From the NCBI GenBank assembly GCA_030625775.1, contig DAOUQC010000051.1, positions 1 through 36,708 of the forward strand: 36,708 nt of DNA, in the 5' to 3' direction. The translations under genes and the position numbers were made by a program. This DNA is from Verrucomicrobiota bacterium (GTDB lineage: Bacteria > Verrucomicrobiota > Verrucomicrobiia > Verrucomicrobiales > DEV007). The notes beneath the pieces were generated by a model that was given only the letters and a program-made list of their open reading frames with translations, was not told the origin of the DNA and made no database searches. Positions 1 through 26,640 of this stretch are shown in pieces (positions within the stretch are counted from its first letter, which is position 1; each line of letters begins with the position of its first letter).

Positions 1-1145
1 TCCACCCGACAAATCGAGTGATAAAATTTTCCATTATCCCCCTTGGGGATTTCATCCAGGTAGTCAATCTTCAAATCCTTCGGCAGGTAACCGAAATGAT
101 CACAAAAAACTGCATAAATTTCCTCGTCGATGGGCCTTTCCGCATCAATATTCACAGTAAAATCTTCAATCCCGTTCTGAATCACCTGGTACTGGCGCAT
201 GCCCGGCAAGTCCCGCAAGGCGTAGGACAGATCGGCAAACAAATGACGTTTGCCATCCCTGTGAACCAGGGCTCCACGCACTTTGCCATAAATTTTTTCC
301 AAAGCAGGCAAGGCCGATTGCCCACAAGGGCAGGTTCCCTTCACCGCATAGTCCCCAATTTCATAGCGAATAAAGGGAGACAGCCGGTTGGCATAATCCG
401 TGATCACCACCCGGCCCCGCTCACCTTCGGCAGCAGGCACATCTTCACCCTCACGCAAAACCTCAAGCCCCAGCCGGTGCGCCATGATGTGATGAAAGGC
501 CGGTTCATGCTGGCATTGCGCCGCAATCATACCGAATTCCATCGAACTGTAGGAAGTCCAGATCCGTGCATTGGGAAAAGCCCGCTGGACGATCTCGATC
601 TGGAAGGGCTCGACATTTTCCGAGAACAAACCAAAACGCTCGATAAATGAAACGTCGACCCCTTGCTTAAGAACTGCCCGCGCCAGCATGTCGGCATTGG
701 TCGGATAGGTAGTGATCGCAGTGATCTGCCCTTCCCGTCGTCGTTTGAGAATGTATTCCAACTGATCCGGTATAGGCAACTTTACATCCAAAAGGTTCGC
801 AGCGGTTTTTTTTGATTTCGGTAAAATAATTCGCAGACAGGAAAGCTTGCCGCCGAGCGCTTTCACGAATTTATTAACGTCACTTTGACCCATTTTGGCC
901 CGGTGCGGCGAATGAATATAACGAACCGGCACCCCGGTGGAGCCTGAAGTCTTTCCCGTAGAGGACCGTCCGTTGAGAATGGCCTCATTATTTTCGAGAA
1001 AAGTTTTTCGATCGAGAATCGGAACCTGATCAGGGTCTGCCAACCACTCGCGATAAAAGGGATTGTGCCGACGGGCATAGTCCACGATCTGCCGGAAATG
1101 CCTGGCAGCATAAGGTCGCTTGTTAAATGATTCAGGCACAGACAT
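1..1145 (-). CDS. PaaK/CapK-like adenylate-forming enzyme (partial, C-terminus beyond left edge)
   Basis: An open frame runs on the minus strand from an ATG at 1145 through base 1 without a stop, giving about 381 residues. It resembles the phenylacetate-CoA ligase / CapK family (COG1541), which activates a carboxylate as an acyl-adenylate. Visible motifs are the phosphate-binding TSGSTGVP (about residues 66-73), a YSSMEFG segment matching the usual Y-G-x-x-E region, RYEIGDYA (the R-Y-x-x-G-D signature) and a CPCGQ motif typical of the family. The family's N-terminal helix is present (FRQIVDYARRHNPFYREW). It begins about 90 residues later than in the homolog at 3793-5238, so this is a short-N-terminus variant. 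Divergent from the glycosyltransferases starting at 1306. CapK-type members often lie in capsule or exopolysaccharide loci. The acyl substrate is unknown. An upstream AAGGAT sits about 13 nt from the ATG, rather far for a ribosome site. Confidence 0.85.
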   Translation of the reverse strand, partial: MSVPESFNKRPYAARHFRQIVDYARRHNPFYREWLADPDQVPILDRKTFLENNEAILNGRSSTGKTSGSTGVPVRYIHSPHRAKMGQSDVNKFVKALGGKLSCLRIILPKSKKTAANLLDVKLPIPDQLEYILKRRREGQITAITTYPTNADMLARAVLKQGVDVSFIERFGLFSENVEPFQIEIVQRAFPNARIWTSYSSMEFGMIAAQCQHEPAFHHIMAHRLGLEVLREGEDVPAAEGERGRVVITDYANRLSPFIRYEIGDYAVKGTCPCGQSALPALEKIYGKVRGALVHRDGKRHLFADLSYALRDLPGMRQYQVIQNGIEDFTVNIDAERPIDEEIYAVFCDHFGYLPKDLKIDYLDEIPKGDNGKFYHSICRV

Positions 1146-1305: not shown

Positions 1306-2511
1306 ATGCGCATCCTCTTTCTGCACGACAATTTTCCAGCCCAATTCCCCCATGTCGCTACAGCGCTGGCAAAGGAAAAGGGCAACGAGGTGGTTTTTGG
1401 TTCCACTCGCAAGGAAGGTGAACTGCCCGGAGTCCGGCGAGTCACCTTCCAGAGTAAACGCAGCATCCATCAAAATACCCACCACTACCTGCACGGGCTC
1501 GAGCGCGCGGTGAATACCGGTGAGGCTGTTTATGCCCTGGGACAGCGCTTGAAAAAAGAAGGCTTCGTTCCCGATGTGGTCTACGGGCATTCCGGCTGGG
1601 GTCCGCCCCTCTTCATCAAGGACGTTTTTCCAAAAAGCCGCTTGCTCTGTTATTTCGAATGGTTTTACCACACCTATGGCTCGGATGTAGACTTTGATCC
1701 CGCTTACCCGCCCTCCGTCGATGACGAGGCTCGCATTCGGATGAAAAATACCCCCATCCTGCTCGATCTCGACAGTTGCGACCGGGGACTCTCCCCCACC
1801 CACTGGCAGCGCAATCAATTTCCGCAAGAGTGGCAGCCCAAGATTGATGTGATCAACGATGGATTCGACACCGATCTGTGCAAGCCTGCCAAAGGGGCAA
1901 AACTGAAACTTGACCGTATTGGCCTGGATTTATCTCAGGCAAAAGAACTGGTTACTTACACCGCCTGGGGCATGGAACCCTACCGCGGCTTTCCGCAATT
2001 CCTGCGCGCCATTGCCAAACTGCAAAGAACCCGGCCGGACATGCACGTAGTTATCGTCGGTGAAAACCGCACCGTTTATGGCCGGAAACGCGGTGACGGT
2101 AAAAGCTGGAAAGAGGAAATGCTCACAACTCTGGATCTCGATGAAAAGCGTATCCACTTCCCCGGTATGTTGCCCCATGAAGAACTCAGGCAGGTCTACC
2201 AGGCATCCTCAGCCCATGTCTATCTGACCCGTCCCTTCATCCTGTCCTGGTCGATGATGGAAGCGATGTCCAGCGGCTGCCTGCTCGTCGCCTCGGACGT
2301 GCCCACCGTGACTGAGGTCGTCACCGATAATGAAACCGGTTTGCTGGTTGATTTTTTCGACCCCAACGCCATTGCCGGACGAATCGAAGAAGCTCTTGCC
2401 AACTCGGATGACATGAAAAAAATTCGCAAAAAAGCCCGCCAACACATCATCGACCACTACAGCCTGAAAAAAAACCTACCCAAACACCTCGACTGGATCC
2501 GGGGAAAATGA
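1306..2511 (+). CDS. Family 4 glycosyltransferase (first of a tandem pair)
   Basis: 401 residues. The N-terminus MRILFLHDNFPAQFPH matches the GT4 subgroup with the Glyco_trans_4_3 type N-terminal domain. The C-terminal half is a GT-B donor-binding domain: VTYTAWGMEPYRGFPQF, VIVGENR, then the EAMSSGCLLVASD segment that carries the nucleotide-sugar binding Glu region, followed by TEVVTDNETGLLVDFF. No signal peptide or membrane span is seen, so it is probably cytoplasmic or membrane-peripheral and transfers a sugar from an NDP-sugar to a glycan or lipid-linked acceptor. The next gene is a close paralogue in the same frame order 44 bp downstream. The ATG is preceded by a pyrimidine-rich leader with no Shine-Dalgarno. 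It is divergent from the partial PaaK-like gene, with a 160 bp spacer that presumably holds both promoters. Donor and acceptor cannot be read from the sequence. Confidence 0.88.
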   Translation: MRILFLHDNFPAQFPHVATALAKEKGNEVVFGSTRKEGELPGVRRVTFQSKRSIHQNTHHYLHGLERAVNTGEAVYALGQRLKKEGFVPDVVYGHSGWGPPLFIKDVFPKSRLLCYFEWFYHTYGSDVDFDPAYPPSVDDEARIRMKNTPILLDLDSCDRGLSPTHWQRNQFPQEWQPKIDVINDGFDTDLCKPAKGAKLKLDRIGLDLSQAKELVTYTAWGMEPYRGFPQFLRAIAKLQRTRPDMHVVIVGENRTVYGRKRGDGKSWKEEMLTTLDLDEKRIHFPGMLPHEELRQVYQASSAHVYLTRPFILSWSMMEAMSSGCLLVASDVPTVTEVVTDNETGLLVDFFDPNAIAGRIEEALANSDDMKKIRKKARQHIIDHYSLKKNLPKHLDWIRGK

Positions 2512-2555: not shown

Positions 2556-3770
2556 GTGCGCATCCTCTTTCTCCATAAAAACTTTCCTGCCCAATTCCGT
2601 CACCTGGCCACCGCCATGGGCAAGAGTCTGGATCACACCGTGGTATTCGCCACCGGTCGCCGCGAAGGGGAAATCGAAGGAGTCGATAAACGGCTCTTCC
2701 GCAGTGAAATCGAAACGGTGCCCGAAACCCATGCCTTTGTCCAGGGCACCGAGAGCGCAGTAAAAATCGGCCAGGATGCCTACCGGATTGCCGCGCAGTT
2801 AAAAGAGCAGAACTTCGTGCCCGACATCATCTACGGGCACTCCGGCTGGGGGCCTACCCTGTTCATGAAGGATGCTTTCCCCCATGCAAAACTCCTGGCT
2901 TACTTTGAATGGTATTACCGGGCCGACAGTCCGCTCTACAACTTCGATGCAAGCAGCCCCCTCAAAGCCGGAGGAATCAAACACAGCCGCGTGCGCAACG
3001 TCCCTATCCTGACGGACCTCTACAGCTGCGACGCCGGCTTCAGTCCCACTGGATGGCAGCGGGACCAATTCCCCGGCGAATATCGAGACAAAATCAAAGT
3101 GCTGCATGACGGGGTGGACACGAATTTTTTCCGCCCCTGGCCCTATGGCCGCCGTCCACTCATCCTGCCGCGACTGGGACTCAACTTATCCGGGGCAAAG
3201 GAAATCGTTACCTACATCGCCCGCGGCATGGAGCCGATCCGTGGCTTTCCCCAATTCATGAAGACGGTCGAGATTCTACAAAAGCGCCGTCCCGATTGTC
3301 ATTTTGTCATCTGCGGAGATGACCGGGTCGCGTATGGCGATCCCCACCCGGAAGGAAAAACCTACAAAGAAGCTGCGCTGGAAGAACTGGACCTTGATCA
3401 ATCACGACTGCACTTCACCGGCTTGCTACCCTACGATGAATACGTACAGGTTCTGCAGGCCTCGTCTGCCCATGTCTACCTCACCTGGCCCTTTGTCCTC
3501 TCGTGGAGCACCATCGAGGCGATGTCCTGTGGTTGCCCGCTGATTGCCTCCGACACCGAACCCGTGCGTGAAGTGATCACTGATGGCGAGAACGGCTACC
3601 TGGTGGATTTTTTCGATACCGAAGCCATTGCCGCCAAAATAGCGGAAGTATTGGATGACCCTGACAAAAACAAAAAAATCCGTCAAGCCGCACGCAAAAC
3701 CGTGCTCGAAAAATACGACCTTGCCTACACCCTGCCCGAACATCTGGCCTGGCTGGAAAGCTTTTTCTAA
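2556..3770 (+). CDS. Family 4 glycosyltransferase (second of a tandem pair)
   Basis: 404 residues, starting at GTG 2556 (the N-terminus MRILFLHKNFPAQFRHLA aligns with residue 1 of the upstream paralogue, which fixes the start). Domain order is the same: N-terminal acceptor half with DIIYGHSGWGPTLF, then the donor half with VTYIARGMEPIRGFPQF, VICGDDR and EAMSCGCPLIASD. It and the gene at 1306-2511 clearly arose by duplication; they share long stretches such as YGHSGWGP and SSAHVYLT. Retention of both suggests two successive or alternative glycosyl transfers. There is no Shine-Dalgarno; the leader is T- and C-rich directly after the heptad repeats. The next gene, a PaaK-like ligase, starts 22 bp after the stop, so the three plus-strand genes are probably one transcript. 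Confidence 0.88.
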   Translation: MRILFLHKNFPAQFRHLATAMGKSLDHTVVFATGRREGEIEGVDKRLFRSEIETVPETHAFVQGTESAVKIGQDAYRIAAQLKEQNFVPDIIYGHSGWGPTLFMKDAFPHAKLLAYFEWYYRADSPLYNFDASSPLKAGGIKHSRVRNVPILTDLYSCDAGFSPTGWQRDQFPGEYRDKIKVLHDGVDTNFFRPWPYGRRPLILPRLGLNLSGAKEIVTYIARGMEPIRGFPQFMKTVEILQKRRPDCHFVICGDDRVAYGDPHPEGKTYKEAALEELDLDQSRLHFTGLLPYDEYVQVLQASSAHVYLTWPFVLSWSTIEAMSCGCPLIASDTEPVREVITDGENGYLVDFFDTEAIAAKIAEVLDDPDKNKKIRQAARKTVLEKYDLAYTLPEHLAWLESFF

Positions 3771-3792: not shown

Positions 3793-5238
3793 ATGACTCA
3801 CAGCCCAGAAGCTTCACCCACCACCCTTGAACAGGAACGTGAGGAGCAACTGCGATGGAAACTATTGCCCCAGTATTCAGGGCTGCCGCTATTTGATCGT
3901 CTGGTGGAAAATGAATTTCTACCTCAAGAAGTCCATCAGCAGCAGCAATTGCAACGCCTGCGGAAGATCATTCAGTATGCACGGGACTTCATCCCCTATT
4001 ATCAAACGGGTGATTCATCGATGTACCAGATCGGCAAGCTGAGCGACCTCTCGCGCTTGCCCATCCTCACCAAGCAAGAAGTCATCGATCACTTTAAAAC
4101 CCTACAATGCGCTCATCTTCCCCGGGGAGGAAAGGCAGGAGGTATCACCTCATCATCGGGAACTACCGGGCGGCCGGTCAGTGTTGCCCAGACTGAGCGT
4201 TCCATGCGGATGTTCAGCATATTTCGACAGCGGGAGGCTCGCTGGTTCCGGCAGGATCCAACTGCTCTGGCGGCCCGCATGCGTTTCCCGCAGACTTTCC
4301 CTCGCCAGAAAAATGGCTCTCTTCTTGCCAATGGTGAAACTTACACACGCAAGCGCTGGTCTCATCAAGGCCTATATTTTGAAACCGGACCAGAAGTTTG
4401 CTGCAATGTGGAAAATACACGTGAATGGCAGATCGAGTGGCTCAAAAAACACCGGCCAAAGTACCTGGAAAGTCCACCGACTATATTCGAAGAACTCATA
4501 ATGGCCAATAACCAGAAAAAGCCTGTGGACAGCTTGGAATGCCTTGTCGGTATAGGAACTGTTGTCACGGATTCGATGCGGTCAATCATCGAACGGATTT
4601 TTGAAATCCCGATTCATCAAAACTACGGTATGAACGAGGCGGGCATCGTTGCTGCTCGCTGTTCCGCGCAGCGCTATCACATCCACACCGAACATTGTTT
4701 TATAGAAATCGTTGACCAGGATGGCCTGCCCGTGAAACCCGGTGAGACCGGGCGCGTGATTGTAACACCATTCAAAAATCTCCAAATGCCCTTGTTGCGA
4801 TACGACACTGGAGACTTGGCCATAGCCGTTGAAGGAGCATGTCCCTGTGGCCGCACTTTACCCAGCATTGGTACTATTGTCGGTAGATACTGGAGATATG
4901 CTTCCCTGCCGGAAGGCAGTTTCAAACGCTTCATGGCAATTTACAATACCATGAAGTGGATGCCCCCTGAACTGCTGGTTAACCTTCGCCAGAACCAAGT
5001 ACACCTATATCGCGATATGCGTTTTGAAATTCGCCTGCGAACCGTTGGCCCGCTTTCACCTGAATTTTATAAACGTATCACTGCTCGATGGATTGAAGCC
5101 GCTGGTGAAAGCGAAAAAGAATTACTCAGTTTTAAGGAAGTTGACCACATTGAAGGATCCCCGGGCGGTAAGCATTTGGAATTTTCATCTGATTTTTTCT
5201 CCGATGAAGATCGTAAAATCACAAACGTCGATATCTAA
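3793..5238 (+). CDS. PaaK/CapK-like phenylacetate-CoA ligase family protein
   Basis: 481 residues, about the full length for the family. It should adenylate a carboxylic acid and pass it to CoA or another acceptor. Motifs: SSSGTTGRP at residues 120-128 (phosphate-binding loop), YGMNEAG at 278-284, RYDTGD at 336-341 and CPCGR at 350-354, followed by a C-terminal lid domain. It is a second, longer copy of the enzyme type found on the other strand at 1-1145. It follows the two glycosyltransferases by 22 bp, which supports a role in making or acylating a glycan, as for CapK-type members of capsule loci. This link is inference. No Shine-Dalgarno is seen before the ATG. Its TAA overlaps by 4 bp the TAG of the convergent GNAT gene (shared CTAA). 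Substrate unknown. Confidence 0.87.
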   Translation: MTHSPEASPTTLEQEREEQLRWKLLPQYSGLPLFDRLVENEFLPQEVHQQQQLQRLRKIIQYARDFIPYYQTGDSSMYQIGKLSDLSRLPILTKQEVIDHFKTLQCAHLPRGGKAGGITSSSGTTGRPVSVAQTERSMRMFSIFRQREARWFRQDPTALAARMRFPQTFPRQKNGSLLANGETYTRKRWSHQGLYFETGPEVCCNVENTREWQIEWLKKHRPKYLESPPTIFEELIMANNQKKPVDSLECLVGIGTVVTDSMRSIIERIFEIPIHQNYGMNEAGIVAARCSAQRYHIHTEHCFIEIVDQDGLPVKPGETGRVIVTPFKNLQMPLLRYDTGDLAIAVEGACPCGRTLPSIGTIVGRYWRYASLPEGSFKRFMAIYNTMKWMPPELLVNLRQNQVHLYRDMRFEIRLRTVGPLSPEFYKRITARWIEAAGESEKELLSFKEVDHIEGSPGGKHLEFSSDFFSDEDRKITNVDI

Positions 5239-6131
5239 CCCGGCTTCTTCAAATCACAGCCGTAGAGATGATTATTCACCAGCAGTTTGCCTCCAAAACG
5301 CCGGGCCAATTTGATGGTATCTTTGTGCAACTGGTCATCCCCTTCAAAATAAACCTTACCGATCCCCAGAGCTCTCAACTTTCTGGCAAAGGTGTACATC
5401 AAGGCCACATTGACCCAGGTTCCCCGGACCTCCGGAGCCACCACCCGGGAATCAATCACCAGACCTCTCTCTCCCTTGCGAATCAGTAACACTGCCACCG
5501 GGCCTGCCGCCGAACGAATCACCACCGAAAGCTTTGGCAGGAAACCGTTCGCTCCTCCCTGCAAACGACTGATCAGGGCATCCGGAATCCCTCCAAGATG
5601 CTCCAATACAAACTGATTAACCAGACGGGGTTTGGCCTGCTCAAGCGAAACAACCTCATAGCCCTTCGGCAACTTCTCTTTTTCAAAAAGCCTTTTTGCC
5701 AAGGGCGCAACAAAGGCCCAGGCATCGTCTGTTTTGATTTCGAAATACTGCAAAGTTCGCACAACCCTGAATCCATCCAATGATTCAAAAAAACGGCTCT
5801 CTTCGCTGTGCTCGGCAATTGGAATTCCGGCAAGCATCTTCCCCACGCCTTCTTTGACCGCGTGCCCGCTCATTGCCTGCATCAAAAAAGTGCCGCTTCC
5901 CTGACGGCGGAATTCAGGCAAAACAAAGAGCTGGAAACGCCCTGTTTTGTTCCCCTTTTTTCCCAGGATCCGTAAGGACCCCATCGCAATCACTTCCCCA
6001 TCGGTTTTATTTTCTGCCAGAAAAAACAAGGGGCGCGGCAAACTTAGAAAGGCCTGAGGCAACCACGAACGGAACTTTTCCAGATCTTCATCCTCCCCGG
6101 CAATACGAATCTGGATTATTTCAGTTTCCAT
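5235..6131 (-). CDS. GNAT-family N-acetyltransferase, apparently two GNAT domains
   Basis: 298 residues. The N-terminal half is a recognisable GNAT domain with the acetyl-CoA pyrophosphate loop RRQGSG at residues 75-80 preceded by the beta4 strand GRFQLFVLPEF. The second half (about residues 150-295) repeats the fold pattern, with VIDSRVVAPEVRG followed by WVNVALMYTFARKLRALGIGKVYFEGDD, but its loop is degenerate, so only the first half is likely to bind acetyl-CoA. The family transfers an acyl group to an amine; the target is unknown. The ATG (6131) lies inside the end of the upstream TIGR03032-type gene (11 bp overlap), so the two are almost certainly co-transcribed and translationally coupled. 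At its 3' end it overlaps the convergent PaaK-like gene by 4 bp. Confidence 0.75.
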   Translation of the reverse strand: METEIIQIRIAGEDEDLEKFRSWLPQAFLSLPRPLFFLAENKTDGEVIAMGSLRILGKKGNKTGRFQLFVLPEFRRQGSGTFLMQAMSGHAVKEGVGKMLAGIPIAEHSEESRFFESLDGFRVVRTLQYFEIKTDDAWAFVAPLAKRLFEKEKLPKGYEVVSLEQAKPRLVNQFVLEHLGGIPDALISRLQGGANGFLPKLSVVIRSAAGPVAVLLIRKGERGLVIDSRVVAPEVRGTWVNVALMYTFARKLRALGIGKVYFEGDDQLHKDTIKLARRFGGKLLVNNHLYGCDLKKPG

Positions 6132-7320
6132 CCTGGGAATCCAGCGGCTTTTTCTCTATCTCCTTATCCTTGCTCCTCGCTGCCAGGGACTTGCCCACCT
6201 CCACCTTCTTGGGAGCAGGATGAATCCCCTGCACCGGCTGGATGCTTATGCTTCTACGAATTTCATCGGTCAGAAACCCAACGGCCGAAGGGGCCCGTGT
6301 GTTCGGGATCGCCACCACATCGTATAACTCCCGCACATCCCCCTTCAACTCCAGAAAATGCACCGAATCCCCCGTGCGCAAATCGATCACCTGCAAACCC
6401 GCCCGCGCCTGCACCTTTTTCTCATCCAGCGCATCGTCCAGATTCAAGCCGGAAAAAGTCCGGTTCTCCCGGCACAAGGAGAGTCCCACAATGGCAAAGT
6501 CTCCAAAAAATCCCATTCCGCGGGCGTAGCCCGGCACAAAGGCAATCGGCTCGAACGTGCCCGACTTGCGGTCCACTTTACCAAAATACCCCTCCCCGGA
6601 ATTCAACACATAGAGTTCTCCATTGTGCAAGCGGGGCGAGTGCGGCATCGACAGGCCTTCGCATACAATATCATTGGTCCGCACATCAATCACCACCCCT
6701 CCATCGCGGCGATGCTCACGCCAGCCCCCATGCACGTCCGTGGTCGCAATCGCCGTTACGTAAGCCGGCTCGAAACCATCCATCGCCAGACCATTCAGAT
6801 GACAGCGATCCTCGGCTGCCAGACGTGAAATGAAGGGAGGTTTCCACACCGGAGCAAAGCTGCGTGACACGCTGGGGCGGGCGAGACAGGAAAACATCGT
6901 ATTCACAAAAATAGGCACGCCTTTTTCATCAATGGCAATATCGTGGGCATCCACGTCTCCGGTGATGTAGCTAACCTGTGGCACATAGAGTCTGTCGTAT
7001 GGCCCCGAAGTCTGACCCGGCTCCAGGGTATCCTCCAACCTCCACAGCTGGTACAGCGTACTCATCCACAAAGTGCCCGGTGACGGACAACACAGCCCCA
7101 TCACACGCTGGAAATTGCGGTTGAAAACCGTTACTTTGCCATCATTGGTCGAGCCAATAAAAAAAACCTTACCTGCTTGATAAGTGGTAAACGCCAGACT
7201 TAGATTCTGCTCCTGCAGCCATGAGGTGAACTGTCGGGAACAGGTCACATCCAATTGGATTTGCCCGGCCGGCCTGCCTGCTTTTTTCACTGCTATTTTT
7301 TTCTTTGGAACTTGCGCCAT
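6121..7320 (-). CDS. TIGR03032 (DUF4915) family protein
   Basis: 399 residues from the ATG at 7320. The same frame stays open to 7467, but the extra 49 residues (rich in C, H and D) do not look like the family and would run over the divergent gene start, so the internal ATG is preferred. The body matches my memory of TIGR03032: LCCPSPGTLWMSTLYQLWRL, YVPQVSYITGDVDAHDI, then AAEDRCHLNGLAMD, GLSMPHSPRLHNGELYVLNSG and FVPGYARGMGFFGDFAIVGLS. These repeated strand-rich blocks suggest a beta-propeller-like fold. No enzymatic function is established to my knowledge. The protein ends in a charged tail (KDKEIEKKPLDS). It overlaps the GNAT gene by 11 bp and is divergent from the CphA-like gene. A hairpin sits directly upstream of the ATG. 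Confidence 0.78.
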   Translation of the reverse strand: MAQVPKKKIAVKKAGRPAGQIQLDVTCSRQFTSWLQEQNLSLAFTTYQAGKVFFIGSTNDGKVTVFNRNFQRVMGLCCPSPGTLWMSTLYQLWRLEDTLEPGQTSGPYDRLYVPQVSYITGDVDAHDIAIDEKGVPIFVNTMFSCLARPSVSRSFAPVWKPPFISRLAAEDRCHLNGLAMDGFEPAYVTAIATTDVHGGWREHRRDGGVVIDVRTNDIVCEGLSMPHSPRLHNGELYVLNSGEGYFGKVDRKSGTFEPIAFVPGYARGMGFFGDFAIVGLSLCRENRTFSGLNLDDALDEKKVQARAGLQVIDLRTGDSVHFLELKGDVRELYDVVAIPNTRAPSAVGFLTDEIRRSISIQPVQGIHPAPKKVEVGKSLAARSKDKEIEKKPLDSQDGN

Positions 7321-7324
7321 AGCG

Positions 7325-7347
7325 GCCACTGTATACCAAACAGTGGC
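7325..7347 (-). promoter_or_regulatory. Inverted repeat/hairpin abutting the TIGR03032-type start codon
   Basis: GCCACTG (7325-7331) and CAGTGGC (7341-7347) form a perfect 7-bp inverted repeat around a 9-nt spacer containing GTATAC on the minus strand. Only 4 bp separate it from the ATG at 7320. It could be a repressor operator or an mRNA hairpin controlling translation of the TIGR03032-GNAT pair. It also lies within the 93 bp divergent spacer with the CphA-like gene. Confidence 0.45.
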
Positions 7348-7413
7348 TTTGTGAAGTGCGTTTAGAACAATAAATATGTCATTTCCCTCGATGTCTATTA
7401 CTCCAGCATTTTC

Positions 7414-9918
7414 ATGAAAATCACCCGCATCACAGCTCTCGCAGGCCCCAACCGTTACTGCAAACATCCCGTTCTACGAATCAGGTTCGATTTCCCTGAA
7501 CTCCAGCAAAGCCCGCGTCTGGCTGACCGGAATGCTCTCAATAAGGCCCTGTCGGAATTGATCACCGGTTTTGCCGAAATCGCTGACTCCGCTCAAGGGG
7601 ATCGCACCGGTATCAACGTCATCGATCTGATACCAGCCATTGCTCTGGCTCTACAAAACCTGACGGGGTGCCAGCTCAAATTTCAACAGAGTGCCCGGGT
7701 TGCCAGCCCCCATAACTCATCCACCTCTTTCGAAGCAGTTTTTGAATACGAATCCTCAACTATCGCCCGGCTCGCCACCCCCCTGAGTTTCAAGATTATC
7801 TTTGCCGTATTACAGCGCCGTTTTGGTATCACCCTTCCAGAAGCCCTGCAAGCCCCTGACAGTTTCAACATCGAGCAACAGATCACTCACTTCCTCAAAA
7901 CAACTGTTCAAGCTGCGCTGGATGACGATACCCGAACCCTCATCCAGGCCCTGGAAAAACGCCATATCCCCTGGCACCGGACAGATGATTCCTCGCGCAT
8001 CATTCAAGCAGGATACGGAGTGCATCGAAAGCTCGTTTACGGAACCATCACCAGTGACACAACGGTTCCGGGCAGCATGGTTTCACGTGACAAATTCCTA
8101 AGTAATACCCTGCTTAAAAATGCAGGTTTTCCCGTTCCCCGACAGGCTAGTGCCTCATCTTTGGAACAGGCCAAGTTGCATGCGCAGTCATTCGAGTATC
8201 CGGTAGTGGTGAAACCTGCCATGGGAGCAAAGAGCAACAAAGTCGCTTTTAAAGTTCCTAACGAATCAGAACTGGAAGCTGTTTTTGGTCGTATTCAAAA
8301 ACTATGTGAACAGATCATTATCGAAACCTTTATTCCCGGCGAAAACCACCGTTTTCTAGTTGTGGCAAACTCCGTCGTAGCTGTAGCACGCCGCAGGTCA
8401 AACCATGTGCACGGAGACCATGAACAAATGATCGACATGAACACGGATACCAGCTCGGTCGAGGTCATCGATCAGACCCATCCAGACAACATTGCCATGG
8501 CTGAACGGGTAGCCGCTGTGACTGGATTGGATATAGTCGGAGTTGATTTCATTTCGAGTGATATCTCCCGCTCCTACCTGGAAACGGGAGGAGGTATTTA
8601 CGCCATTAATCTCGGCCCCAGTTTGCGCCCCCACAGTGCCACCGAAGGAGGAAAAGCGGGGTCCATTCCCAGAACGATTGTCGAGCACCTCTTCCCGACA
8701 GTCATCACCTGCAATGGCCTTCCTCTCTGCGCTGCCATAACCGGCACCAATGGCAAAACCACAACCTGCCGAATGCTGGATGCCATCCTGCGCCAGGCTG
8801 GCCTGAATACCGGCATGGCAAACTCCGATGGTGCCTACATTAACGGTCACTTGGTTTTGCAAGGGGACCAGGCAGGGTTTAGCGGTGCCAGAACTGTTCT
8901 CAGTGATTCCAGACTGGAAGCCGCAGTGCTCGAAACCTCCCCGGAGGGCATACTCGAAAGCGGCATGGGCTTTTCCGCCTGCACCGTCAGTGCGGTATTG
9001 AACATCACTCCCGATTATCTCGGCTTTGATGGTCTTCACAGCCTGGAAGAAATGGCGGAGCTGCACCAGCTTGTTGCCGAGCTGTCCCAGGACACAGTCG
9101 TCTTGAATGCAGACGACCCTCTTTGCATCGACATGATTCAACATCTCGGTGAGCGCAAGCTCAGTCTGGTCACCCGCGACCCCGATAACAGCAGCATCAT
9201 GATTCCCATAGCCAATGTCGACAGTGTTGTCACCCTGGGGAAATCAAAAAACAAAAAAACGGAGCACATCGTCATCCGCGCCAACGGTGAAGAAACCATT
9301 GTGCTGAAGACCTGGGAAATCCCTGCCACCTTCGAGGGGCTGGCCCAACACAATATAGACAACGCCATGTCCGCTATCGCCCTTGCCCACAACATGGGAA
9401 TAACGATCGAATCCATCAGAACCGCACTGAGAAAATTTACCTGTAGCTTTGAAAACAGCCCCGGGCGAAGCAACATCATTCATGACAAGGATTTCACGGT
9501 CATGCTTGATTTCGCCCACAACCCGGAAGGGGTCAGAGCCATCGGCGAACTGGTGGAAAACATGGAGAGCGAAGGCAAACGCATCTGCATCCTGTCCAGC
9601 CCAGCCAACCGGAGAAGTGATCACTTCCTGGCAATGGCTGAAGCTGCAGCGGAAAGTTTTGATCATATCATTTGCTCAAACTGGTATGACCTACACGGCC
9701 AGCCACCGGAACTGGTGCCTGATAAATTTGAAGAAACCTTGAGAAATTGCGGCTTTAATCAGGATGAAATCACCGTCTGTAACGATGCCGGGCAGAGTAT
9801 CAAAACCGCAATTCAAAAACTCGAAGAGGAAGACATTCTAGTCATTTTTGGTGACCAGGCAGACCGCAGACGCCAACAAGTAATGGAAATACTGGGCACC
9901 TCTTCCGGGGATGAGTGA
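7414..9918 (+). CDS. Cyanophycin synthetase-like ligase (N-terminal + ATP-grasp + Mur ligase)
   Basis: 834 residues with CphA architecture: an N-terminal domain (MKITRITALAGPNRY, about 1-160), an ATP-grasp domain (about 180-410) and a Mur-ligase domain (about 430-834). CphA adds Asp and then Arg to a growing peptide polymer using two ATPs. The Mur half has an intact P-loop GTNGKTTT (444-451) and DFAHNPEG. Several usual CphA residues differ. The ATP-grasp metal motif E-x-N reads A-I-N (397-399), the long stretch normally between the GDG/HT loop and HPDN looks absent (only about 20 residues after HVHGD), the Mur motif N-x-x-x-D-H reads N-I-T-P-D-Y, and TARGG reads TSPEG. It may therefore make something other than cyanophycin. 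The start has no Shine-Dalgarno. It converges with the UbiB-like gene 15 bp away. The comparison is with family sequence from memory. Confidence 0.8.
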   Translation: MKITRITALAGPNRYCKHPVLRIRFDFPELQQSPRLADRNALNKALSELITGFAEIADSAQGDRTGINVIDLIPAIALALQNLTGCQLKFQQSARVASPHNSSTSFEAVFEYESSTIARLATPLSFKIIFAVLQRRFGITLPEALQAPDSFNIEQQITHFLKTTVQAALDDDTRTLIQALEKRHIPWHRTDDSSRIIQAGYGVHRKLVYGTITSDTTVPGSMVSRDKFLSNTLLKNAGFPVPRQASASSLEQAKLHAQSFEYPVVVKPAMGAKSNKVAFKVPNESELEAVFGRIQKLCEQIIIETFIPGENHRFLVVANSVVAVARRRSNHVHGDHEQMIDMNTDTSSVEVIDQTHPDNIAMAERVAAVTGLDIVGVDFISSDISRSYLETGGGIYAINLGPSLRPHSATEGGKAGSIPRTIVEHLFPTVITCNGLPLCAAITGTNGKTTTCRMLDAILRQAGLNTGMANSDGAYINGHLVLQGDQAGFSGARTVLSDSRLEAAVLETSPEGILESGMGFSACTVSAVLNITPDYLGFDGLHSLEEMAELHQLVAELSQDTVVLNADDPLCIDMIQHLGERKLSLVTRDPDNSSIMIPIANVDSVVTLGKSKNKKTEHIVIRANGEETIVLKTWEIPATFEGLAQHNIDNAMSAIALAHNMGITIESIRTALRKFTCSFENSPGRSNIIHDKDFTVMLDFAHNPEGVRAIGELVENMESEGKRICILSSPANRRSDHFLAMAEAAAESFDHIICSNWYDLHGQPPELVPDKFEETLRNCGFNQDEITVCNDAGQSIKTAIQKLEEEDILVIFGDQADRRRQQVMEILGTSSGDE

Positions 9919-9933
9919 AAGCAATCCACCCCC

Positions 9934-11598
9934 TCACTTTTTTGCTCGTTTTTTGCTTTTGCGAATCGTGCGTGACAGACGAAAGCCCATCCAAAAAGCC
10001 AACACACAACCTGTCGCTCCAAACAGGGAAACCCCCTTGAAGGTTGGTGGCGCGGCAGTACTCCACATCATCGCCGAGCCCACAAACAAGGCCGCTGTCA
10101 GCAATCCGGTCACCAGTCGATCCACCGTGCCCTCCAGTCGTCGATGCTCCAGCTGCACTTCAAAGGTCCCTTTGCGAACCCGGGCGATAATGTCCGTCAG
10201 ATCCCGCGGCAAAGCATCGGCCAGGCGTTTCCAGTCACGATAAGAGCGATGCACTTCACTCAGTAAACGTTTCGGTCTCAAACGCCGCTTGATCGCCTTC
10301 TTGTAATAAGGTTTGATCATCGATGCCAGACTGAAATTGGGTGTCAACAATCTTGATGTGCCATCCAGAGTCACCAGGGTTTTCAACAACAAGCCAAAAC
10401 TGGAGGGCATGATGATGTGAAAACCTCGAATCGCCTCGAGCAAACGGGTCATCGCCCCTGCGGTATCAAAATCAGCCATTGACTGGCCAACATAATCGGC
10501 AAGGAAATCACCGATTTCACTGCGCAACTCATCGCGATCTAATTCCGGCGGGGTCTGGCCAATCCTCATCACCTGCTCGGCCAGTTCATTTGAATCCCCC
10601 TCCACCGCTGCCAACAACATGTCTTCAATCCCCTCCCGGAGTTCGGCGTCTATCCTGCCCACCATGCCACAGTCAAGCACCCCCACAATCCCACCCTCGA
10701 GAAGCATCAGGTTGCCTGGATGCGGATCGGCATGGTAAAAACCATCCCGGAAAATCATGTCCAGGTACATGTTGGCCCCACAGTAGGCAAACTCACAAAG
10801 ATCCACCCCCGATGCTTTAAGCCCCTCTTCATCAGACACTGCCACCCCGCGCAACAGCTCCATCACCAACACCCGGCGCGAACAGTATTCTGCATAAACC
10901 TCAGGAAAATGCACCTGCGGATCATTCTGAAAATTTTTCGCAAAAGCCTCCAGGTGCCGTCGCTCATATTCAAAATCCATCTCCCTAAGCAGGGTTCGTT
11001 CGAAATACTTGGCATTGGCCACAGGTTGATACGAACTCAACTGGGTGGAATTTTTCTCAGCCAGTTCCGCCAGGCCGGAAAGAATCTCCAAATCCTGTTT
11101 CACCACCTCTTCAATGCCTTCGTGCAAAACTTTGACCACCACCTCCTGACCACTTTTCAAAACAGCCCGATGAACCTGACCTATTGAAGCCGACGCCAAG
11201 GCTTCGTGTTCGAAGCTCTCAAACAAGTCATCCGGGCTGCTTCCAAGTTCTGCTTTGATGGTTTTGGAAACCTGTTCATAATCATCAGCCGGAGTGTTCG
11301 ATTGCAGCTTAGACAACTCTTCGGTCAACTCGGCCCCAATCAGATCGGGCCGGGTACTGAGAATCTGCCCAATTTTGATGAAGCTGGTTCCCAACTCGGT
11401 CATCGACAAACGAATGCGCTGCGGAGTGGTCAGGTCTCGCATTTCTTCGATTTTGCCACCCTTCAAATAACGCTGCAGCCAGTCGTAATCCAAATGCGAG
11501 AGCCAATCCGCCAAGCCGTATTTTGCCAGTACCCCGACAATTTCAGCCACTCGTTTGGCACTTTGATCCAATCGCACAAGAGTGCTCAGCTTCATCAT
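9934..11598 (-). CDS. ABC1/UbiB (AarF) family kinase-like membrane protein
   Basis: 554 residues. UbiB/ADCK proteins are atypical kinase-like ATPases that support ubiquinone or isoprenoid-lipid metabolism at membranes. The signature KxGQ is K75-I-G-Q78, the Ala-rich loop is ALASASIGQVH (133-143), the catalytic and metal region is HADPHPGN (289-296), and the DFG equivalent reads D-C-G (309-311). Two C-terminal hydrophobic spans (about 490-512 and 520-543) followed by a basic tail RKSKKRAKK anchor it in the membrane. Two ATGs are adjacent (11598 and 11595). The AAAAGGA upstream has 4 nt spacing to the first and 7 to the second, so the second is equally likely. Alone between a convergent ligase and the end of the DUF1501 operon. 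The quinone link is family knowledge, not shown here. Confidence 0.88.
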   Translation of the reverse strand: MMKLSTLVRLDQSAKRVAEIVGVLAKYGLADWLSHLDYDWLQRYLKGGKIEEMRDLTTPQRIRLSMTELGTSFIKIGQILSTRPDLIGAELTEELSKLQSNTPADDYEQVSKTIKAELGSSPDDLFESFEHEALASASIGQVHRAVLKSGQEVVVKVLHEGIEEVVKQDLEILSGLAELAEKNSTQLSSYQPVANAKYFERTLLREMDFEYERRHLEAFAKNFQNDPQVHFPEVYAEYCSRRVLVMELLRGVAVSDEEGLKASGVDLCEFAYCGANMYLDMIFRDGFYHADPHPGNLMLLEGGIVGVLDCGMVGRIDAELREGIEDMLLAAVEGDSNELAEQVMRIGQTPPELDRDELRSEIGDFLADYVGQSMADFDTAGAMTRLLEAIRGFHIIMPSSFGLLLKTLVTLDGTSRLLTPNFSLASMIKPYYKKAIKRRLRPKRLLSEVHRSYRDWKRLADALPRDLTDIIARVRKGTFEVQLEHRRLEGTVDRLVTGLLTAALFVGSAMMWSTAAPPTFKGVSLFGATGCVLAFWMGFRLSRTIRKSKKRAKK

Positions 11599-21667: not shown

Positions 21668-23215
21668 CTATTCCTTCATCGCTTTCCTCCACTGCGAAAA
21701 ACTCTTCAAATAGGACCAGCTAAAATCCTTCTGCCTGCGGTATTTCATATCTCGATTACCCAGTTGCTCCGCCACAAAAGCCTCCACGTTTTTCTGCTCA
21801 AGAAAGGGATCGCGTGTGTGTTTTTGAAGATCGACCAGCCCCTTGATCAAGCGGGCTTTGGTTTCAGCGTAAGCCGGATCATCCGCCAGATTATTCCATT
21901 CGTATGGATCCTCTTTTAGATCATAAAGCTCGTAACGCGGCGGACTCGACCAGAGGGCAAAGGCCTTTTTTACAGTGGGGCTCACGGTCGCCTGATCATC
22001 AGCGGTCGCTCCTGAAATAACAAAATGTTGATGTGATTCATCAAGATAACTACCGGAGATGAGATTTTTTGTGCCGGGCCTTGGACTCGAAATCAATTTG
22101 TAACGATCGTCACGAAGGGAATGTTGAATGAAACAATTGCGAGGGAAAGAACCGGTAGTAAACCCAAAAATATATTTACGCCACTTATCCGGCGTAGATC
22201 CAACTAACAAAGGTTTCAAATCCCAGCCTGGCAAATTGGAGGGTGCTGCGATCCCCGCTGCTGCCAGCGACGTCGGCAACAGGTCAACCGTAGAGACGAG
22301 TTCCTTTCTCACTAAGCCAGCCTTCGCCACACCCGGCCAGCGAACAATCAAGGGCACGCGCAAAGCGCCTTCATAAACCGATCCTTTGCCGCGAGGAAAC
22401 TGCGCCCCATGATCCCCAAAATAAAAAATAATCGTATTATCCGCCTGCCCCGTTTTTTCCAACTCGGCCAGCAGCAAACCCACACCATCATCGAGCCTGG
22501 CAAGGCAGTTATAATAATTAGCCACCTCTTCACGTAGCCGTGGCGTATCCACTCCCACCCAAGGCATGGCTTTCACATCTTTTTCCGATACCGGATCAAC
22601 CGGGCGGCCATTGATTTTTTTAATAAAAGGGTGATGCGCATCCGGATAATTTACTGAGAGAAACCACGGCTTGTCTCCACTGGCTTTAAAAAATCCGGCT
22701 GCCTCCGCCGCATATTCTTCAACCGTTTGTTTGCGATTAAAATTAGCCCCACGAATCGTATGGGAATCAAAAGGGAAAGCATCCTCCGGATTTACATGCA
22801 GTTTGCCGATCAATCCGGCACGATACCCCTTAGCTTTGAACAGAGTCGCGAAGTTCGGCGTATTTTTTTTATAAAGCGCAAACTTGTGAGTTGCCAGACC
22901 GATCTGACCGTTCTGGTGCGGATACAGACCGGTGAGAAAACAAGCCCGTGAGGGTGAACACACCGAATAAGGAACAAAAGCATTTTCAAAACGAACCCCT
23001 TCCGTGGCAAGTTTATCAAGATTGGGCGTTCTCGCATACGGATCGCCATAACAACCCAGCTCCGGCCCGTTATCCTCGGAGACAATCAAGAGGATGTTCG
23101 GTGTTTTTGCGGCAGCGGACAGGCTGGCAAATAGGCCTGCCAGAAAAAGAACAAAAGCGGCAGGGAGTTTAGGAAGAGGAAAACAAATAGTATTCATGAT
23201 TAAAAGGAGATTCAC
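21668..23215 (-). CDS. Exported type I sulfatase
   Basis: 515 residues from GTG 23215, or 509 from ATG 23197; both keep the signal peptide (AAFVLFLAGLFASLSAAA). The GTG overlaps the stop of the upstream gene as GTGA. Sulfatase motifs: TPNILLIVSEDNGPELGCYGD (metal-binding Asp/Asn), the maturation site CSPSR (Cys86 from the GTG) followed by LTGLYPHQNG, IGKLHV and FYFGDHGAQFPRGKGSVYEGALRVPLIV. The Cys is converted to formylglycine in active enzymes. It should hydrolyse sulfate esters in the periplasm or outside; the substrate is probably a sulfated glycan. Third gene after the cyclase and the HzsA-like/FGE-like fusion. It converges with the phosphate transporter. Subfamily not assignable by eye. 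Confidence 0.92.
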   Translation of the reverse strand: MNLLLIMNTICFPLPKLPAAFVLFLAGLFASLSAAAKTPNILLIVSEDNGPELGCYGDPYARTPNLDKLATEGVRFENAFVPYSVCSPSRACFLTGLYPHQNGQIGLATHKFALYKKNTPNFATLFKAKGYRAGLIGKLHVNPEDAFPFDSHTIRGANFNRKQTVEEYAAEAAGFFKASGDKPWFLSVNYPDAHHPFIKKINGRPVDPVSEKDVKAMPWVGVDTPRLREEVANYYNCLARLDDGVGLLLAELEKTGQADNTIIFYFGDHGAQFPRGKGSVYEGALRVPLIVRWPGVAKAGLVRKELVSTVDLLPTSLAAAGIAAPSNLPGWDLKPLLVGSTPDKWRKYIFGFTTGSFPRNCFIQHSLRDDRYKLISSPRPGTKNLISGSYLDESHQHFVISGATADDQATVSPTVKKAFALWSSPPRYELYDLKEDPYEWNNLADDPAYAETKARLIKGLVDLQKHTRDPFLEQKNVEAFVAEQLGNRDMKYRRQKDFSWSYLKSFSQWRKAMKE

Positions 23216-26200
23216 TCCTCAACAATCACCCGGAAACCTACATTGTAAATCTGCTGGAACTGTGGATAGGAAAGTCGGAAACTGGCGGTAGCCCGGTAAG
23301 GACGGTCATGCCATGAACCACCTCTTACCACCCGCTTGCCTGACCGTTTCCCATCGGGGGAATTGCGTCCATCTTCAGCATAGGGATAAGACTCAAAACG
23401 GGAACGAGTCCATTCGGCTACATTGCCGTGCATATCATACAGTCCCCAGGGATTCGGCTGATACCCCTTGGTCAACCGTGGCAGCAGAGACCCATCGTCC
23501 ACACTTGTATCCTTGGGTATGTAGTCCATGTATTTGCTGGGATTTTTTATTATTGTCTGCCTGGAGTATGCGTCCGTTGCCGTTTCCATCACCATCTCAC
23601 TGATCCGCTGATCGGCCAGATTGGCATATGTCGCAAAATCAGTGCCCATCGCTCCAAACCAGAAAGGTTCTGCTTTGCCTGCACGGCAGGCCCACTCCCA
23701 CTGGGCTTCCGTTGGCAAAGTCACCTTCCTGCCCGTTTTTTCTGACAACCAGTGACAGAAAGCCACTGCTTTTTCCCAACTAAGCCTTACCGCCGGCATT
23801 TCCGGCAGGTTCATGTCATAGCCTCGTGCCCCAAACTGATAACCTTTCCATGATTCATCCCGGCTGTCGTGATTACGGTCAAAACAGCGCATCTGGGCAT
23901 TGCTCACTTCGGCCTCCGCCATGAAATAGCCTTTGGATATTTTTACCCGGGACATCGGCAATTCATCCAAAGCACCACTGCCAGAGCCCATGTTGAACGA
24001 TCCTGAGGGAATATATACCAACTTGATTTTTTGCCCCTGCCCCAGGTCGATGATTTGTGCATCCTTGCTCTCTTTGGCAATCTCGAACCGGGCCGACAAA
24101 AGCCCCTTCTTGCGCAACTCATTTTGCTTGCTCTGGTTCGGCATGATCGATTTCGGTTTTATCGGCTCAGCAGCTTGATGCTGGTGAAAGGAATCCACCC
24201 CGGCATACTTTTGACTGAGCTCATTGGCTCGTGTCATCGAATTCATCACACGCTCATGTTTTTTTGGCAGCTTACCCAAAACATCCTTACGGTAACCATG
24301 ATAAGGGGCATTAAAATCGATCCAGCAGATCAGCCGCGACCACTCATCTCCGCTCAGCTTTACTCCGTGGTGACCTTTTCTGAGTAACTGTACCAGCTCT
24401 GTAGTATCAGCGCTGAACTCCTTGGGGGTCAGAATCCGCATATCGCTCTCAATCCCAGCTCGCCGCACAAAACGATGCAGCTCACTATAAGCTATACTGA
24501 AACGACCGGCGTAATCAGCATTGGCCCGTCCAGAGTAAGTCATATCCCAGTCGTCGATCAGCTCTGCACTGAAATGGGGAATTGGTTTATCCTGGTATTC
24601 CAGACGTCGGCTTTCATAACGACCATCCGCCGCTTTGCCATCGTGACAGGAATTGCACTTACGCTCCAGAACCGGCTGGATCTCATGACGAAAACTGAAG
24701 GGACGCTGCTTTCCCAGCCAGGGAGTGATCGCCTGAGGTTGCACTGTCGCAGCGAGTGACATTTTAGGCTGTGGAGCTTCTCGACTACTTTCATGACAAC
24801 CTACGCAGGAAACCCGCTCACCGGGACGCCCCACGAACCAGGAACGCATGGTTTGCAGGGCCTGGCCGCTCTTGTCCAAAGGCTGGAGAAAAATCGGTGT
24901 ATTGGCGGGAATCTCAAAGGTGGCTGAACCGTCCTTGAACACCGGCACCGTACCCAGCACCCGCTTGATGTCCCAGGGGCCATCCATTCCGAGAGTGCCA
25001 ATGAGACCTCCACTGCCGTGAGGAGAAAAATGATATGCCCCCACCCGAAGGGCATCCACTTCTCCCCGGGGAACTCCCTTGAGGCCGGGTCCCTGGTAGA
25101 TATCCTGAATATAGACTGTCGCCGTCTTTTTCTCAGGGTCTACTCTGTCTGCGATAATCGGTGCGCTCTTCTCCCTGCGTAATGGCACAGGCTCAAACAA
25201 ACCCTGCCCCTCCATTTCCTTGATCAGGGTAATGTTATCAAATACATCCACCAGATAAATGCCCCATAGGCTGCCTGCTTTGGGCTTCATTGAAACCAGA
25301 AAATATTTCCCTGCTCCACGATGGCTGCCTTTTTCAGCCAGTGGAAAAGGATGGAGGATCTGCGGCCATACCCCATCCACCAGACGGTCCTTGACTTCCG
25401 CTACAACTTTTTTTCCGCGACCCGGAATTTCACACACAACACCTTCCGCCTCCCTCGTGCCCAGTTGCGGGTCGATTACCAGCATTCGTCCGGAACGGGA
25501 CAAGCCGTGATGACCAGTAGCGATACCAACAATTTGCGTTGCATGCCCTGGAATCGGACGAGCATAGAAGAAAGAATTAGGGAAATAGGAATTACTTCCA
25601 TAGTAAGATTTCTGAGAAGTGCCGTCAGGATTCATACTCATGACGATGCGGCTATTGGAGTGCACCATATCCGCGTATTCCCAACGCAAATACATGACCC
25701 GACCGTCATTCATAACTGTCGGACACCAGTCACTGTCCTGCTCGAAACAAAGTTGGTCGATTTTTTTGCTCTGGGGATTGAGACGATAAATACTAGCCAT
25801 GCGGGGCTGACCGTCAATGCAAGGCATGCCGAGGAAAGTAGCCGTGGATGTGAAAACCACTTCATCATTGGGCAGGTAACAGGCATCGTAGTGATCCACA
25901 TCGTTCCCATCATCTGGAGAGAGCTGGTTCAGCTCCCCTCCGGACACCTGCTTCTCAAAAAGTCGCCACACGCCCTTTTCATTGACCCCCGAAAACATCA
26001 GTTTCTCACCCGAAACATGAAGATCCACATCTGAGATCAACCCCCCATGCCCGGATTTGTGAATGCTACGCAGCACAGCATTTTTTTGTAAAAAATCCTC
26101 CAACACCGCAACCTCATTATCCCACCCCTTGCGTTGAGTGTCGCTCATGGTCGAAAAATTTCCATTGGGCATCCCAATCCCGCGACCCATTTTCTGGCGA

Positions 26201-26640
26201 GCCCCATCACCCAGATTACGCCGGATCAGCAGGATTCCCTTGAAATCAAATAACGGATTACCAAGCAAAACAGCCTTTTGAAAGGCCAGCAATTTTTCAA
26301 CTTGTTTGAAAGCTTCCGGTTCCCCGGTTTTACAAGTCTCTCTCAGGCCGGGTAGATTTTTTACAATAACATCCAGCTTTTGAAGAAGTTCCCCTGGGTT
26401 TGCGTACCGCTCTGGGAACTCAACGGACAAGTCCGCAATCGCCAAACGCATTGCTTTTGGATTGAACAGTTCCAGCTGTTGCTGCAGTGACTCTTTATTT
26501 AATCGGGCTTCCTCCGCCTGCACGTCTACCTCCTCTGCCGAGACCTTGGCGAGCGGAGGTGCCCAGAGGTGGCCCGATATGCATAAACAGGCAAAAAAAA
26601 CCGTGGAACTTAACCGTCTCACATTCATAATGATATCCAC
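23212..26640 (-). CDS. Two-haem HzsA-like protein with C-terminal FGE/SUMF1-like domain
   Basis: 1142 residues from GTG 26640, which has AGAGG 4 nt upstream; ATG 26628 (MNVRRLSSTVFFACLC) is the alternative. A signal peptide is present. Residues about 190-600 form a propeller-like region similar to the hydrazine-synthase alpha-subunit type (LISDVDLHVSGEKLMFSG, DHYDACYLPNDEVVFTSTA). Two c-type haem motifs follow, CVGCH (612-616) and CNSCH (662-666). Residues about 864-1142 are a formylglycine-generating-enzyme-like domain (LVYIPSGSFNMGS, LPTEAQWEWACRAG, NPWGLYDMHGNVAEW, RGGSWHDRPYRATASFRLS). True FGEs carry two catalytic Cys in the RGGS segment; here none is seen there, so catalysis is doubtful. 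It overlaps the downstream sulfatase by GTGA. The overall function is unknown; hydrazine chemistry is unlikely. Confidence 0.8.
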   Translation of the reverse strand: MDIIMNVRRLSSTVFFACLCISGHLWAPPLAKVSAEEVDVQAEEARLNKESLQQQLELFNPKAMRLAIADLSVEFPERYANPGELLQKLDVIVKNLPGLRETCKTGEPEAFKQVEKLLAFQKAVLLGNPLFDFKGILLIRRNLGDGARQKMGRGIGMPNGNFSTMSDTQRKGWDNEVAVLEDFLQKNAVLRSIHKSGHGGLISDVDLHVSGEKLMFSGVNEKGVWRLFEKQVSGGELNQLSPDDGNDVDHYDACYLPNDEVVFTSTATFLGMPCIDGQPRMASIYRLNPQSKKIDQLCFEQDSDWCPTVMNDGRVMYLRWEYADMVHSNSRIVMSMNPDGTSQKSYYGSNSYFPNSFFYARPIPGHATQIVGIATGHHGLSRSGRMLVIDPQLGTREAEGVVCEIPGRGKKVVAEVKDRLVDGVWPQILHPFPLAEKGSHRGAGKYFLVSMKPKAGSLWGIYLVDVFDNITLIKEMEGQGLFEPVPLRREKSAPIIADRVDPEKKTATVYIQDIYQGPGLKGVPRGEVDALRVGAYHFSPHGSGGLIGTLGMDGPWDIKRVLGTVPVFKDGSATFEIPANTPIFLQPLDKSGQALQTMRSWFVGRPGERVSCVGCHESSREAPQPKMSLAATVQPQAITPWLGKQRPFSFRHEIQPVLERKCNSCHDGKAADGRYESRRLEYQDKPIPHFSAELIDDWDMTYSGRANADYAGRFSIAYSELHRFVRRAGIESDMRILTPKEFSADTTELVQLLRKGHHGVKLSGDEWSRLICWIDFNAPYHGYRKDVLGKLPKKHERVMNSMTRANELSQKYAGVDSFHQHQAAEPIKPKSIMPNQSKQNELRKKGLLSARFEIAKESKDAQIIDLGQGQKIKLVYIPSGSFNMGSGSGALDELPMSRVKISKGYFMAEAEVSNAQMRCFDRNHDSRDESWKGYQFGARGYDMNLPEMPAVRLSWEKAVAFCHWLSEKTGRKVTLPTEAQWEWACRAGKAEPFWFGAMGTDFATYANLADQRISEMVMETATDAYSRQTIIKNPSKYMDYIPKDTSVDDGSLLPRLTKGYQPNPWGLYDMHGNVAEWTRSRFESYPYAEDGRNSPDGKRSGKRVVRGGSWHDRPYRATASFRLSYPQFQQIYNVGFRVIVEE

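Follow-up and report, generated by a model that had tools for sequence, protein, structure and literature searches.

The window, meaning the whole stretch of 36,708 nucleotides that was analysed, is contig C56 in the assembly of an uncultured verrucomicrobial bacterium (G000; 4.88 Mb in 158 contigs, 96.4% complete). It encodes a protein derived from cyanophycin synthetase (CphA), here called P0001, among genes several of which recur at the corresponding loci of two congeners, G001 and G002. The following features are relevant:

1..1145 (-): second PaaK-like-related gene, cut by the contig start two codons before its end (BLAST; without a Pfam match)
1306..2511 (+): GT4-type glycosyltransferase, conserved in G001 and G002 (domain match, synteny)
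2556..3770 (+): GT4-type glycosyltransferase, conserved in G001 and G002 (domain match, synteny)
3793..5238 (+): PaaK-like adenylating enzyme (domain match)
5235..6131 (-): GNAT acetyltransferase, conserved near the locus in G001 and G002 (domain match, synteny)
6121..7467 (-): DUF4915/TIGR03032 protein, divergent neighbour, beside a CphA-like gene in G001 and G002 too (domain match, synteny)
7414..9918 (+): CphA-derived paralog P0001 of 834 residues, with N, G (ATP-grasp) and M (Mur) domains (domain matches, structure model)
8401..8448 (+): residues 330-345 of P0001, site of a net 57-residue deletion of the Gomega lobe, where a degenerate remnant of the Asp-binding loop, D341-T346, starts (alignment, pLDDT <50)
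8602..8610 (+): A397-I-N399, replacing the metal-binding E-x-N (alignment)
8743..8763 (+): intact Mur P-loop GTNGKTT, residues 444-450 (alignment)
8932..8949 (+): E507-T-S-P-E-G512, replacing ETARGG (alignment)
9013..9018 (+): D534-Y535, replacing D585-H586 (alignment)
9064..9066 (+): H551, replacing K602, a Lys in all 81 comparison proteins (alignment)
9934..11598 (-): ABC1/UbiB-like kinase, convergent neighbour, with the same junction in G002 contig C65 (domain match, synteny)

Residue numbers such as E450, H586 and K602 are those of TeCphA1/SuCphA1, and the roles of these residues in CphA1 are taken from PMC9427784 and PMC9262961. P0001 was compared with P0002 of G001, with P0003 and P0004 of G002, and with P0005, encoded on contig C136 of G000. 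P0002 is identical over 891 residues to a protein on JAADHD010000344.1, from a Verrucomicrobiota MAG. The start of P0001 is colinear with the homologous starts in G001 and G002.

The gene order ABC1, CphA-like, DUF4915, GNAT is common to G000 (with P0001) and G002 (with P0004), in the latter spanning two contigs, C65 and C4, whose ends overlap in the P0004 gene. The DUF4915 neighbour was not found among the examined CphA loci outside the genus, and a literature search for TIGR03032 returned no paper. A suggestion of the sequence-only reading, that P0001 ligates amino acids or acyl units onto the products of the neighbouring adenylating enzymes, found proximity as its sole link. In G001, the full-length CphA gene has the counterpart of the gene at 1-1145 immediately next to its stop, and the alignment puts window position 1 at 8 bases from this stop codon. 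A full-length CphA copy was found in none of the 158 contigs of G000, but its absence from that genome is unproven because the window contig starts where the 3' end of the copy would lie; if gene order is as in G001, the copy would possibly begin just off the contig. Elsewhere in the window, a 1142-residue protein (23212-26640, minus strand) combines a match to the middle domain of hydrazine synthase alpha with an FGE-sulfatase domain, and at the cluster end in G001 a 1089-residue RTX-type repeat protein (L021:14465-17734, plus strand) lies beside a methyltransferase gene.

P0001 matches ATP-grasp, Mur middle and Mur C-terminal domains, and cyanophycin synthetases are its best solved relatives by sequence. 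Its AlphaFold2 model (pLDDT 88.4, pTM 0.88) has the CphA fold, with TeCphA1 (7wae) as best PDB match (TMq 0.83), and the only segments of at least three residues with pLDDT below 50 are 330-345 and 832-834. The CphA domain order first proposed for this protein thus holds, with N, ATP-grasp and Mur domains in sequence. P0001 scores 596.9 bits on TIGR02068, below the equivalog cut-off of 850, and also falls under the PRK14016 cut-off; full-length P0002, at 778.5, is below 850 on TIGR02068 too. The N-domain motif Cx19HxxEH, which according to PMC9262961 occurs in 83% of CphA1 sequences and is not obligatory, is missing in P0001, with D-P-A at the three motif positions; HxxEH is present in 72 of the 81 comparison proteins.

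These 81 proteins are the CphA-matching ORFs longer than 750 residues of loci L045-L123 (L044 being left out). The 77 with a full-length Gomega lobe, which excludes L080 and three long ORFs matching mainly the Mur half, served as controls for the identity-ratio test and for near-invariant sites, defined as conserved in at least 95% of them. The 80 loci L044-L123 had been retrieved with the Mur-half patterns GKTTTCRM and [VI]VLNADDP, so that Mur P-loop conservation among them is partly due to selection; H586, R561 and K602 lie outside these patterns.

Erosion of the ATP-grasp half is borne out by the alignment, with both the metal-binding Glu and the Asp-recognition module lost. The E-x-N motif reads A-I-N at 397-399, Ala397 replacing a Glu that is present in 77 of the 81 comparison proteins. 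E450 is a Mg ligand according to PMC9427784, and it is Ala in P0001; the other metal ligand, D431, is kept as D378. The gap between GDH (334-336) and HPDN (from 356) is 19 residues, as against 76 (336 to 413) in P0002, which at 891 residues is 57 longer than P0001, and only 7 of 63 residues are left at positions 330-393. Complete removal of the R-T-x-N-x-S-T-G-G segment had been proposed; most of the Gomega lobe is indeed deleted, but the last part of the segment persists as a degenerate Asp-binding loop, D341-M-N-T-D-T346, aligned to N-L-S-T-G-G. The Asp-recognition residues carried by Gomega, N394 and S396 (PMC9427784), are Asp and Asn in P0001. The G-domain residues that remain are K227 (the invariant Lys equivalent to K220), K267, R313, R327, D378, N399 and R405, with equivalents of K261, R309, R323, D431, N452 and R458 among those retained; H267 is Lys, as it is in full-length P0002. 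In a control model of P0002 built from the same 32 rows, the ten-residue blocks of 331-400 have pLDDT 74-96, the Gomega lobe being confidently predicted.

From the G loop onwards, 14 of 25 near-invariant sites are kept in P0001 (with one gap), against 22 of 26 in P0002, which indicates that these losses are not due to chance; the first part of G keeps 23 of 30 and 26 of 30, respectively. When sites at least 60% conserved were considered, 13 in the G loop and after were kept by P0002 alone and none by P0001 alone (p 0.00024). The corresponding excess loss in Mcore was 10 versus 3 (p 0.09), significance being confined to the G loop and after. Near-invariant sites are kept in Mcore at 31 of 41 positions by P0001 and 36 of 41 by P0002, and in Mlid at 8 and 9 of 14.

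The Mur half retains its P-loop as first described, but is otherwise less intact than had been thought. TARGG reads T-S-P-E-G (508-512), R561 and G562 being replaced by P510 and E511, the D-H of N-x-x-x-D-H reads D534-Y535, and K602, presumably the counterpart of the carbamylated lysine of Mur ligases, is H551. H586, R561 and K602 are each invariant in all 81 comparison proteins. Equivalents of the P-loop K499 and of E558 (E507), and of R731 and H748 in Mlid (R685 and H702), are present; T522 is Ser, the same as in P0002. A D585A H586A double mutation inactivates the M domain of SuCphA1 (PMC9262961). The idea of a working reverse of CphA2, with a dead G half and a live Mur half, is not supported for P0001, given these three losses and the comparison with its eroded relative P0004, which has GQSS for ARGG, D-P for D-H and N for H748 and retains K602. 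The different letters of P0001 and P0004 at these Mur sites suggest relaxed catalytic sites rather than a re-tuned ligase.

At 1e-20, CphA matches were confined to 3 of 57 relatives, all in this genus and with the window's own genome counted among them. In G001 there is a single, full-length protein, P0002, in which Gomega, C-E-I-N, TARGG and D-H are intact and H748 is Asn. In G002, P0003 has an intact G half, a P-loop reading GAHGKTT and no Mur C-terminal domain, of which a relic follows the stop codon; P0004, read from two contig pieces of 763 and 107 residues with overlap, has Gomega deleted and C-A-I-K at the metal site, and is more eroded than P0001. There is thus no fully standard CphA1 known in the genus, P0002 having Asn for H748 and a score below the TIGR02068 cut-off, and P0003 lacking the Mur C-terminal domain besides its GAHGKTT loop. 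Trees group P0001 with P0004, with support of 100/100 for the N and G columns without the deleted stretch and 96/93 for all columns; Mur columns alone do not resolve this grouping, both proteins are long branches, and a grouping of P0001 with P0002 and P0003 was not rejected by an AU test (p 0.159 for all columns and 0.054 for N and G). A placement of P0001 in the CphA lineage of the rest of the order was rejected, the four genus proteins forming a set with support 100 in a quick tree, apart from the set of complete enzymes and partners of the order (98, same tree). Between P0002 and P0003 (L021:6173-8848 and L020:5963-8173, both minus strand) dS is 0.25-0.35 in N and G and about 0.9 in Mcore, which suggests a mosaic history.

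The P0001 gene looks like a retained duplicate, a doubly eroded CphA paralog, and not like fresh decay. The frames of P0001 and P0004 are both open, in two species. In a substitution-only neutral simulation from the P0002 coding sequence, 1 of 2000 runs kept an open frame at 0.1 changes per site, and none of 2000 did so at 0.2. Between P0001 and P0004, dN (NG86) is 0.28 in Mcore and 0.27 in Mlid, whereas N and G give 0.43-0.52; dS is high or saturated, so that dN/dS itself is not firm. The ratio of G to M identity for this pair is 0.73, a value as low as which was found in none of 2926 control pairs (minimum 0.80); the Mur half is thus the more constrained of the two. Since it is constrained and yet its catalytic residues differ between P0001 and P0004, a binding or scaffold role for P0001, unproven as it is, would fit better than a re-tuned ligase.

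Cleaner instances of a dead G half with an intact Mur half were found in other proteins. P0005 (L012:8645-11122, minus strand, on contig C136 of G000) has Gomega deleted and the G metal site changed, every checked Mur motif intact, and near-invariant sites kept at 38 of 41 positions in Mcore and 12 of 14 in Mlid; its gene lies near two sulfotransferases, glycosyltransferases and a hexapeptide transferase. With P0005 as query, 3 of 74 family genomes matched at 1e-40, its own included, all in this genus, and no close relative was found among 387 phylum genomes at 1e-60, where G000 itself, G249 and G730 matched, the last two at 33-34% over residues 341-805. L080 (5720-8212, plus strand), from an alphaproteobacterial MAG, likewise has Gomega deleted and the Mur half intact (Mcore 40 of 41). 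To judge from their motifs, P0005 and L080, rather than P0001, look like the reverse of CphA2. Other arrangements were noted in passing. The L080 gene adjoins those of a MatE transporter and a pterin-binding enzyme. A Rhodovibrionaceae MAG (L082:8001-12757, plus strand) has overlapping CphA genes, the second resembling CphA2 in that its G half is intact and its Mur P-loop missing. In 27 listed loci, from many proteobacteria and others, CphA1 has beside it a protein (449-674 residues) with matches to CphA in the Mur part alone; families were checked on L049 (10840-12546) alone.

The wider order was examined for paired CphA genes. In a search at 1e-30, 56 of 386 genomes matched, 53 of them outside the genus, and 41 of these 53 had two matches, two candidates being scored per genome; these 41 together with G249, noticed in the search of the class, make up the 42 two-gene genomes considered here (loci L125-L128, L142-L161 and L170-L207), the other 11 positive genomes not being included. 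In all 42, one copy is complete, with ARGG and the Mur C-terminal stretch, and one copy has neither (0 of 42 for each). HxxEH is present in none of the 42 complete enzymes and in 37 of the 38 partners whose N-terminus lies in the examined DNA, the N-terminus of the other four partners lying outside it; 36 of the 37 have the full Cx19HxxEH, the partner in G460 is cut by the edge, and the exception, in G602, reads Y-E-R. The two-gene genomes had been chosen by their two matches, so that the pairing is a product of selection, whereas the split of HxxEH is not. In most partners D431 and E450 are kept, while R323 is replaced by Gly and S396 falls in a gap; eight partners of one family (in G660, G574, G580, G642, G612, G685, G249 and G409) have neither E450 nor Gomega. 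On their motifs the partners would be unable to make polymer, and the distribution of sites points to a division of labour in these pairs, with primer making in one protein and polymerisation in the other. In a search of the class, 15 of 384 genomes matched P0002 at 1e-30, among them G415, whose single match is a complete enzyme that keeps HxxEH itself. Peptidase_S51 (cyanophycinase) matches were found in 2 of 17 searched genomes with pairs, both near the CphA pair; G000 and G001 had none, and the single match in G002 is interrupted by an internal stop.

We propose, with a probability of roughly 45%, that P0001 is a retained pseudo-synthetase partner, non-catalytic or ATP-binding. A cyanophycin-synthetase gene would have been duplicated in this genus, and in one of the copies the ATP-grasp half is now without its Gomega lobe and metal Glu; this copy would not add aspartate in the known way. 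The Mur half keeps its fold and P-loop under more constraint than the G half, but with the histidine of D-H, the arginine of ARGG and the lysine shared by all comparison proteins gone, it would probably not add arginine in the known way either. P0001 would then persist as a putative partner that might, for instance, form mixed oligomers with the second CphA copy, which in G002 lies at the same locus and in G000 possibly, by synteny, just beyond the contig start. The 42 two-gene genomes provide a precedent within the order for a complete copy paired with one without ARGG and the Mur C-terminal domain. The analogy is loose, in that those partners mostly keep the HxxEH of the N-domain, where P0001 has D-P-A. 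The partner reading was given less weight, and a ligase working through its Mur half and decay slightly more, since the genus has no known CphA1 that is fully standard. With the G-domain residues, Mur P-loop, E507, R685 and H702 kept, P0001 may still perform some ATP chemistry.

The main alternative, which we consider unlikely but worth weighing, is that the G half is now a scaffold and that the Mur half, with a rebuilt active site, adds a single kind of amino acid or another amine to a carboxylate acceptor. Retention of the P-loop and of the equivalents of E558, R731 and H748, the greater constraint on the M half, and the existence of P0005 and L080 as G-dead, M-intact CphA proteins are all consistent with such an enzyme. 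In G002, where P0003 has an intact G half but lacks parts of Mur, the two copies could have divided the work, P0003 serving the G-half reaction and P0004 the Mur-half one. The Mur-only reading is opposed by the Y, P and H that P0001 has at the invariant H586, R561 and K602, and by the different letters of P0004 (GQSS, D-P, and N for H748, with K602 kept), which leave no new consensus for a rebuilt site.

Slow decay, in which a redundant copy is on its way to becoming a pseudogene and has not yet been broken, is improbable. The losses in both halves of P0001, the still greater erosion of P0004, and the state of P0003, without a Mur C-terminal domain but with a relic past the stop codon, would be expected of such a history; a frame open in two species, the early closing of the frame in neutral simulation (no open frame among 2000 runs at 0.2 changes per site) and the constraint on the M half relative to the G half would not. 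That P0001 is a working cyanophycin-type synthetase with unusual active sites is very improbable. The fold is intact in the model and several ATP-contact residues remain, but the stretch of Gomega with N394 and S396 is deleted and its remnant altered, the Mg ligand E450 is Ala, the TIGR02068 score is 596.9 against a cut-off of 850, and no Peptidase_S51 match was found in G000. An origin of the deletion in assembly or sequencing scarcely deserves credence, in spite of the 158 contigs and 96% completeness of G000, since the frame is open through the deletion, substitutions are spread over both halves, and P0004, from a separate congener, is without the same lobe, so that the deletion is not unique to one assembly; the deletion and the site losses in P0001 are real.

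A broader proposal, which must be regarded as doubtful, is that synthetases of this order act with incomplete CphA partners, nearly all of them bearing the primer-making N-domain site no longer present in the complete enzyme, and that P0001 represents a second, independently derived kind of partner that keeps the ATP-binding Mur platform only. Among the matches listed in a literature search, which left subscription papers mostly outside, no report of the eroded copy or of the order-wide pairs was found. CphA1 combines two ligases, and often a primer-making hydrolase too, in one protein, and natural copies that lose single sites show which parts are dispensable and whether one subunit can supply a site that another lacks. 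With the eroded copy and the pairs seen across the order, cooperation of subunits in making cyanophycin becomes open to direct test.

P0001 shares with CphA1 (TIGR02068; 7wae, 7lgq, 7lgn) the N-G-M order, the fold, the Mur P-loop and several ATP-contact residues, but differs in being without Gomega and in the substitutions E450 to A, N394 to D, S396 to N, H586 to Y, R561 to P and K602 to H. CphA2 (7ta5, 8fxi) resembles it as a CphA in which one catalytic half has been lost, but the pattern is opposite: CphA2 is without the Mur P-loop and Mlid (PMC9427784), whereas P0001 has lost the G half and keeps the Mur P-loop and C-terminal domain. P0005 has a deleted Gomega and a changed G metal site in common with P0001, but its Mur motifs are intact and it forms a separate long branch of the tree. 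The partners of the order (e.g., L126:6836-8998) are, like P0001, paired and partly lost CphA copies of the same order, but nearly all of them keep HxxEH, all are without the Mur C-terminal domain, and they belong to another clade; P0001, without HxxEH and with a C-terminal domain, is not a partner of the HxxEH-bearing type.
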